From positions 372,001-436,000 of the forward strand of contig NZ_AHWA01000002.1 in NCBI RefSeq assembly GCF_000247645.1: DNA of 64,000 nt. Reading direction: 5' to 3'. How positions within the stretch are numbered: the stretch's first letter is position 1; every line of letters begins with the position of its first letter. The notes under the pieces were generated by a model, which saw only the letters and a program-made list of their open reading frames with translations, was not told the DNA's origin and did no database searches. Source of the stretch: Salinibacterium sp. PAMC 21357 (GTDB taxonomy: Bacteria > Actinomycetota > Actinomycetes > Actinomycetales > Microbacteriaceae). A program made the translations under genes and the position numbers. Below are positions 57,929-59,570 of the stretch, piece after piece.

Positions 57929-58567
57929 GTGATCGAATTTGTGGTCGCGGGGCTAAGCGCCAACTCCGTGCCATACAACGAAGCATTAACGCTTCAACGC
58001 GCACTCCATCAGTCTGTAGTCACCGGGCAATCGCCCAACACAGTTCTATTTCTCGAGCATCCCAGCGTATATACGGCTGGCAGGCGAACTGAAGTAGACG
58101 AGCGACCGGTTGACGGTACTCCCGTTGTCGATGTTGATCGCGGGGGAAAGATCACCTGGCACGGACCAGGGCAGTTGGTCGTGTATCCCCTCGTTCGGCT
58201 GCCGGAACCTGTCGACGTCGTTGGCTACGTGCGATTGCTAGAGAACGCGATCATTGTCGCTCTGCTCCAACTGGATATCGCTGCTCATCAAGTCGACGGT
58301 CGTTCTGGCGTCTGGTTCACCCCTCTCCAATCGACGACTCCAGAAAAGGTGGCAGCCATTGGCGTGCCTGTGTCGCACGGCGTCACGATGCACGGGTTTG
58401 CGCTCAACTGCAACAACAGCCTCGCGGCTTACGACAAGATCGTTGCCTGCGGCATCCGCGACGCCGGTGTGACAACACTGACACGGATCGCTGGCCGCGA
58501 AATTACCCCAACAGAGATAGTTGCGACCGTTCAGCCACACCTAGAGATTGCGCTGGACAATTTATGA
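57929..58567 (+). CDS. lipB: Octanoyl-[acyl-carrier-protein]:protein N-octanoyltransferase
   Basis: 212 residues from GTG 57929 (MIEFVVAGL). It moves octanoate from ACP to lipoyl-domain Lys. Family motifs: [33 protein letters not shown], catalytic Lys140 in EKVAAIGV and the nucleophile Cys174 in KIVACGI. About 110 bases upstream it shares a divergent promoter region with the pseudokinase gene. The TGA overlaps the lipA ATG by four bases. Confidence 0.95.
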
Positions 58568-59570
58568 ACGACTCCGTAAGCAAAAGTCATCCTTCCGATG
58601 GCCGCAAGCTCTTAAGACTCGAAGTGCGTAACTCCGCCGTGCCGATCGAGAGAAAGCCGCCGTGGATTCGCACCGTGGAAAAGATGGGCCCGGAATATCG
58701 CGACCTCGACAAATTAGTCAAAGATAGTTAGCTCGATACTGTGTGCCAACAAGCCGGATGCCCCAATATTTTCGAGTGTTGGGGAGACCGTGAGGCTACC
58801 TTCCTGATTGGTGGCAGCCAGTGCACGAGGCGATGTGACTTTTGTCAGATCGACACGGGAAAGCCCGCGGATTACGACCGCGACGAGCCACGGCGGGTTG
58901 CAGAATCAGTAGCGACGATGAAACTGCGGTACGCGATGTGACCGGGGTCGCGCGCGACGACCTGCCCGATGAAGGGGCGTGGCTTCACGCTGAAACGGTT
59001 AGACAAATTCATCTCAAAAATCCGGGAACCGGCGTAGAGATTCTGGCCACCGATTTCTCTGGAAACCCAGACCTTCTGGCTGAGGTATTTGAGCCACGGC
59101 CCGAAGTCTTCGCCCATAATGTCGAGACTGTCCCCCGTATCTTCAAGCGAGTGCGACCGGGCTTTCGCTACGAACGCTCGCTCGATGTCATCCGGCAAGC
59201 CCACAGCGCCCAATTAGTCACTAAATCGAACCTCATTCTTAGGATGGGCGAGGAGGCAGAAGAGGTAATCGCAGCGCTAACCGACCTACATAATGCGGGA
59301 ACAGACATCATTACCATCACGCAATATCTCCGGCCCAGCCCGAGGCACATGCCGGTAGCCAGGTGGGTCCGGCCCGAAGAGTTCATCGAATTCAGTAAGG
59401 CAGCAGAAGAGATCGGCTTTCTCGGCGTGCTCGCTGGCCCGCTCGTGCGTTCGAGTTATCGAGCTGGTCGATTGTGGGCCCGTTCGATGGCGAGAAAAGG
59501 CCACAAATTGCCGGAGGCGCTCGCGCATCTCGCCGACGACACTTTTGACTTCGCTCAGGCCTTATCCTAG
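58564..59570 (+). pseudogene. lipA: Lipoyl synthase, broken by a stop codon and a one-base deletion
   Basis: Reads as lipA in three pieces. Piece 1 (ATG 58564, coupled to lipB) ends at an in-frame TAG 58729-58731. Piece 2, same frame, carries the auxiliary-cluster Cys of [14 protein letters not shown] and the radical-[11 protein letters not shown], then hits TGA after KLRYAM. Piece 3 (in a shifted frame from about 58936, where GCGATGTGACC replaces GCGACTGTGACC) continues [43 protein letters not shown] and the final [10 protein letters not shown]. Restoring one base gives 335 codons apart from the TAG. Changes at usual glycines (MGLRY to MKLRY; LILGMGE to LILRMGE) suggest real decay. Confidence 0.9.

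Follow-up and report, generated by a model that had tools for sequence, protein, structure and literature searches.

Probable decay of the lipoyl synthase gene lipA in Salinibacterium sp. PAMC 21357, which also encodes a predicted lipoate ligase

Lipoate genes and their counterparts in known systems

Scavenging of lipoate by a ligase has been called widespread in prokaryotes (PMC10332631). The same paper describes a circularly permuted type, Lpl(BA), that is almost confined to Actinomycetota, and cites a characterised member from Streptomyces coelicolor. A literature search for Salinibacterium together with lipoic acid found no report, and with marine or Microbacteriaceae terms, there was nothing on lipA loss here among the matches listed.

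We analyzed a stretch of 64,000 nucleotides from Salinibacterium sp. PAMC 21357 (the window; C5:372001-436000 of a 3.1-Mb genome in 6 contigs). It contains, in order, lpd, a gene for E2, lipB, lipA, a gene for a small membrane protein, and glnA, and the order is the same in Salinibacterium loci that retain lipBA. Unless we say otherwise, positions are those of the window, and all features described in this section are on the plus strand. As originally predicted, lipB and the genes for E2 and E3 look intact: lpd (dihydrolipoyl dehydrogenase or E3; 53378..54751; TIGR01350, 451 bits), the E2 gene (54812..56365; TIGR02927, 568 bits), and lipB (octanoyltransferase; 57941..58567; NF010925, 302 bits with a cut-off of 155) are open frames that score above their family cut-offs. 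The E2 is of the SucB_Actino type, and its N-terminal lipoyl domain (Biotin_lipoyl match at C5:426821-427039) makes it a client for lipoate. In an alignment, LipB retains the lysine of KVAAIG and the cysteine of VACGI, which we take to be catalytic. Downstream of lipA, the membrane protein gene (59578..60282; presumably 'DUF4191') was our syntenic anchor. It is 92-94% identical in the closest named relatives, which are Salinibacterium amurskyense, 'marine actinobacterium PHSC20C1', and Salinibacterium sp. NG253, SWN167, and SWN248.

lipA itself is recognizable, but it is interrupted twice. Its first piece (58564..58935) starts at an ATG at 58564 that overlaps the stop codon of lipB, and its second piece (58938..59570) continues in the next frame to the normal stop. 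As expected for lipoyl synthase (TIGR00510, NF004019), the pieces match in order and lie downstream of lipB; in a profile search with TIGR00510, both match, with '1 TAG' within the first piece, and the second piece covers model positions 113-301. The gene also keeps the auxiliary cysteine motif CX4CX5C (12 residues), the radical-SAM motif CX3CX2C (as CTRRCDFC), and the C-terminal serine region (as RSSYRAG). We assume that these have their usual roles, with CX4CX5C for the auxiliary cluster, CX3CX2C for radical SAM chemistry, and RSSY as the serine region. Unlike other lipoyl synthase genes, this one is interrupted by a stop (codon 56) and by a change of frame (near codon 125).

The stop is a TAG at 58729..58731 that is a sense codon in all 16 homologous rows of a nucleotide alignment, which represent 14 genes (two pairs are the same gene). 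The frame is unchanged from there up to 58935 and is one frame over from 58938, with one base missing at 58936..58937 relative to all 16 rows. So the in-frame stop and the one-base deletion that were originally described are both present in the assembled sequence and in the alignment, and lipA lacks an uninterrupted reading frame, although the change of frame could have arisen in the assembly. Two substitutions at conserved glycines had also been proposed as signs of decay, and these fared differently. G227R, which turns LILGMGE into LILRMGE in the second piece, is real and is private when compared to 36 family members. MKLRY is ruled out as a lesion: the aligned rows have MN, MD, or MK, and the intact LipA of PHSC20C1 shares MKLRY.

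Without a functional LipA, lipoylation would require another route, and either an LplA or a second LipA elsewhere in the genome had been suggested. An intact ligase of 349 residues is indeed encoded on contig 3, with 599 bits for NF053751 (cut-off 550). An LplB match (residues 3-90) precedes the LplA match (TIGR00545, 110-345), so the protein appears to be of the Lpl(BA) type. As in the Lpl(BA) of Actinomycetota (PMC10332631), the small LplB domain comes first and the catalytic LplA domain follows, and we noted no difference from the description there. No second lipA was found by a profile search of the genome: besides lipA, the PF04055 matches are MoaA, MiaB, HemW, and Rv2578c (five in all). 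A genome search for LipS2 (NF053743) gave at best 21 bits, at the MoaA locus, while the cut-off is 270. The lipoate clients in this genome are three lipoyl-domain E2-type proteins and GcvH. It thus resembles the ligase-based scavengers that are treated in PMC10332631, in that it has a ligase and clients and is predicted to have no working LipA. It differs from them in that lipB is open and lipA is recognizable, which would make it an intermediate; 9 of its 10 nearest relatives have no lipA at all.

In our preferred explanation, lipA has become a pseudogene as the lipB-lipA operon is being lost, a process that recurs in the Microbacteriaceae and is only partly complete here, and lipoylation depends on scavenging. 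We consider this probable. In the sequence as assembled, the TAG at codon 56 would stop translation ahead of both iron-sulfur cluster motifs, so no lipoyl synthase is expected, whether the deletion is real or not. The E2 proteins and GcvH would be lipoylated by the Lpl(BA)-type ligase with external lipoate. LipB may still add octanoate, which would be inactive without LipA. In the ten nearest relatives, the same loss is already complete at this locus. The loss of lipA here would be ordinary reductive evolution, a known kind of biology, and the useful part is the intermediate stage.

Assembly errors and the two lesions in lipA

To check for errors, we compared 200 kb of the window genome to 200 kb of PHSC20C1. 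We could read 107 PHSC20C1 frames on the window genome (a few are not genes). Frame changes appeared in 10 of these 107 frames, or in 8 after we dropped one in a tRNA cluster and one in an upstream non-coding extension. All 8 are one-base deletions in the window assembly. They fall in genes for an RpoD-type sigma factor and a dipeptide-type ABC ATPase, in aceE and dnaG (all four above the family cut-offs), in a permease gene (whose match is below the family cut-off), in glnA, and in two further genes, presumably for an aminotransferase and a Dps-like protein. For dnaG, the window genome contains a single match. In the reverse direction, just 1 of 97 PHSC20C1 frames was changed, and it was in a self-overlapping alignment. 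It is hardly credible that all of these deletions are real, so the window assembly loses a base roughly every 15 kb in the coding sequence that was compared. For a gene of lipA's length, the chance of a background deletion is about 6.5-7%. Because one-base deletions are a background fault, and occur in genes that are hardly dispensable, the deletion in lipA is weak evidence for decay, and it may be an assembly error. More broadly, single-base frame changes in this assembly should not be called pseudogenes without further support.

Some of these frame changes lie near the locus. glnA (60849-62342) is one base short near 62171, which shifts the frame of its last ~55 residues; the corresponding frame of PHSC20C1 is uninterrupted. 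This is very likely an assembly fault. The gene for the RpoD-type sigma factor, on the minus strand near 49410, lacks a base in the part that encodes the C terminus, which is likely an assembly fault as well. Outside the window, the gene beside the third E2 (L194:1754-2728; presumably E1 beta) has an end that looks out of frame by eye, and this is probably another single-base fault.

The TAG is another matter. In 112 kb of the comparison to PHSC20C1, we found no convincing premature stop in any other compared gene. The apparent stops were in upstream extensions near the frame start, in frames that lie opposite longer ones on the other strand, in a stretch whose changes lack a coding-type pattern, or in the tRNA cluster; we judged them by their position, the local identity, and the pattern across codon positions. 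Given zero spurious stops over those 112 kb, a gene of lipA's length would contain one with a probability of at most 2.7% (95% upper bound). The TAG is outside the assembly's error class because a stop without a frame change requires substitutions, while the background faults are single-base losses. A stop that is absent from the intact relatives and does not fit the assembly's error pattern would make lipA a pseudogene, as judged from the sequence.

Could both lesions nevertheless be assembly faults, with an undamaged lipA and lipoate synthesis by the strain itself? This would fit the high rate of one-base deletions (8 of 107 compared frames, even in genes such as those for the sigma factor, aceE, single-match dnaG, and glnA), the several-percent chance that a gene as long as lipA contains such a deletion, the intact motifs of lipA, the intact lipB, and the lack of any sign of relaxation in a codon model (see below). 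But all 8 background faults are base losses, and no stop comparable to the TAG was seen. Also, the TAG is accompanied by private changes on either side (E55S and H58D) as well as by E74G and G227R, and the locus has been lost in the 10 nearest relatives that were compared. We consider it unlikely that both lesions are faults.

If the deletion alone were spurious, some LipA might still be made by reading through the TAG or by re-initiating at the GTG at 58741, and every motif after codon 60 is kept in the downstream frame. However, no ribosome-binding sequence is evident by eye before this GTG, a protein that began there would be missing its N-terminal 59 residues, and either product would still carry G227R. 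This scenario seems very improbable to us.

Selection on lipA

If lipA is decaying, as we think is probable, it might have accumulated changes at sites that are otherwise invariant. With 36 loci that contain the full set of six genes as the reference, we counted private changes in the window genome at invariant columns. There were 12 in 197 columns for lipA and 4 in 79 for lipB. The four flanking genes had 0/65, 5/229, 4/288, and 3/151, or 12/733 in total. lipA has a significant excess over the four flanking genes (P = 0.0014, Fisher exact test), and for lipB, P = 0.06, so constraint on lipB may be relaxing. In the five named close relatives, the counts for the flanking genes were similar (0; 5-8; 2-4; 2-4). 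When each lipA was left out in turn, every other lipA had at most 3 private changes, but the window's lipA is also the most isolated row, with 83% identity to the nearest. (Isolation alone raises the number of private changes, and the flanking genes are the control for this.) Three of residues 55-58, around the TAG, are changed; further along, E74G and G227R are drastic replacements.

Other measures of constraint point the other way or are less informative. We fitted branch codon models to four genes (lipA, lipB, the membrane protein gene downstream of lipA, and glnA). In the two-ratio model for lipA, omega = 1 is rejected, and omega is 0.005 on the window branch versus 0.024 elsewhere (2dlnL = 12.1), with the branch length at its bound (synonymous saturation). 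The bound was also reached for the downstream gene. Taken at face value, the result for lipA opposes decay, but we set omega aside because synonymous changes on the window branch have reached saturation. The ratio of mean protein divergence is only slightly raised, at 2.09 for lipA versus 1.43-1.87 for the flanking genes. Branch lengths in the trees, 0.47 for lipA and 0.72 for lipB plus lipA, looked extreme, but the stem of the entire clade is long, and we therefore prefer the counts at invariant sites. Any decay of lipA would be recent, because most of the branch evolved under constraint.

The original argument for decay rather than error was that there are two independent lesions. That argument does not hold, because one of the two is in the assembly's error class. 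The intact cysteine motifs and RSSYRAG, and the barely raised mean divergence, speak against decay. Still, three observations make decay seem the better reading: the in-frame TAG, the number of changes at invariant sites beyond that in the flanking genes, and the fact that the 10 nearest relatives have lost this locus.

Loss of lipB and lipA in relatives

We surveyed 149 sampled genomes of Microbacteriaceae that are at least 95% complete. (The lipA and ligase counts are taken to be from the same 149 genomes, as the identifiers agree.) lipA is full-length in 99 genomes, broken in 1 (the window genome), and missing from 49, so about a third (50/149) lack an intact lipA. The ligase is present in 138 of the 149 genomes, with 132 above the cut-off, and all 11 genomes without it have lipA. 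No genome lacks both intact lipA and the ligase, while 3.7 would be expected (P = 0.009, hypergeometric test, not corrected for kinship).

Within the genus (27 genomes), lipA has a full match in 14 genomes, lies in pieces on two contigs in 1, is broken in 1 (the window genome), and is missing from 11. A ligase frame is present in 26 of the 27. The window genome is one of 11 in a clade, presumably marine, in which the downstream gene is at least 92% identical. In the other 10 members, which are the nearest relatives that we compared, lipB and lipA are absent from the ancestral site, and 9 of these 10, S. amurskyense among them, have no lipA anywhere. lipA is also absent from two members of the genus outside this clade. 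The window genome is nested within the clade (support is 83 for its half and at most 64 inside), which suggests more than one loss of lipBA. If decay is indeed under way, this strain and its ten close relatives would fix the order of events in the loss of a cofactor pathway, and lipoate dependence would be predicted across a clade of environmental actinobacteria.

Alternatively, lipBA might have been lost in the ancestor of the clade, returned in the window strain, and begun to decay again. The absence of lipBA from the site in the other 10 members would be expected in that case, and the lipBA of PHSC20C1 is located elsewhere and does not join the window's copy. But the window's copy is in the ancestral gene order, and it groups within or beside the Salinibacterium copies, albeit on a long branch of weak placement. 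We consider loss and return to be quite improbable.

PHSC20C1 has an intact lipB-lipA at a second site (L156:7275-8899), apart from the ancestral locus: these genes are at 2.67 Mb of the contig, near what we take to be gcvT, while the anchor gene is at 0.76 Mb. Placing this copy as the sister of the window's copy is mildly rejected (p-AU = 0.038), while placing it inside the Salinibacterium set is not rejected (p-AU = 0.069). As a lead from these trees, PHSC20C1 may have regained lipBA from another lineage. A broader idea, which we put forward tentatively and would not bet on, is that self-made lipoate is being lost repeatedly in this shallow clade (lipA first, then lipB, and finally the entire operon), that at least one member, PHSC20C1, regained the operon at a new site from another lineage, and that lipoate is a shared good that is traded among such bacteria.

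In the five named relatives, a nucleotide search found just 22-24 bases of the lipBA region at the ancestral site. They span the end of lipA and the start of the next gene (59557..59580, plus strand), and perhaps they were kept because of the next gene's putative -10 box. Immediately ahead of the next gene's start codon, a TATCCT box overlaps with the 3' end of lipA; this box is kept in the relatives without lipBA and is perhaps a candidate promoter for a leaderless transcript.
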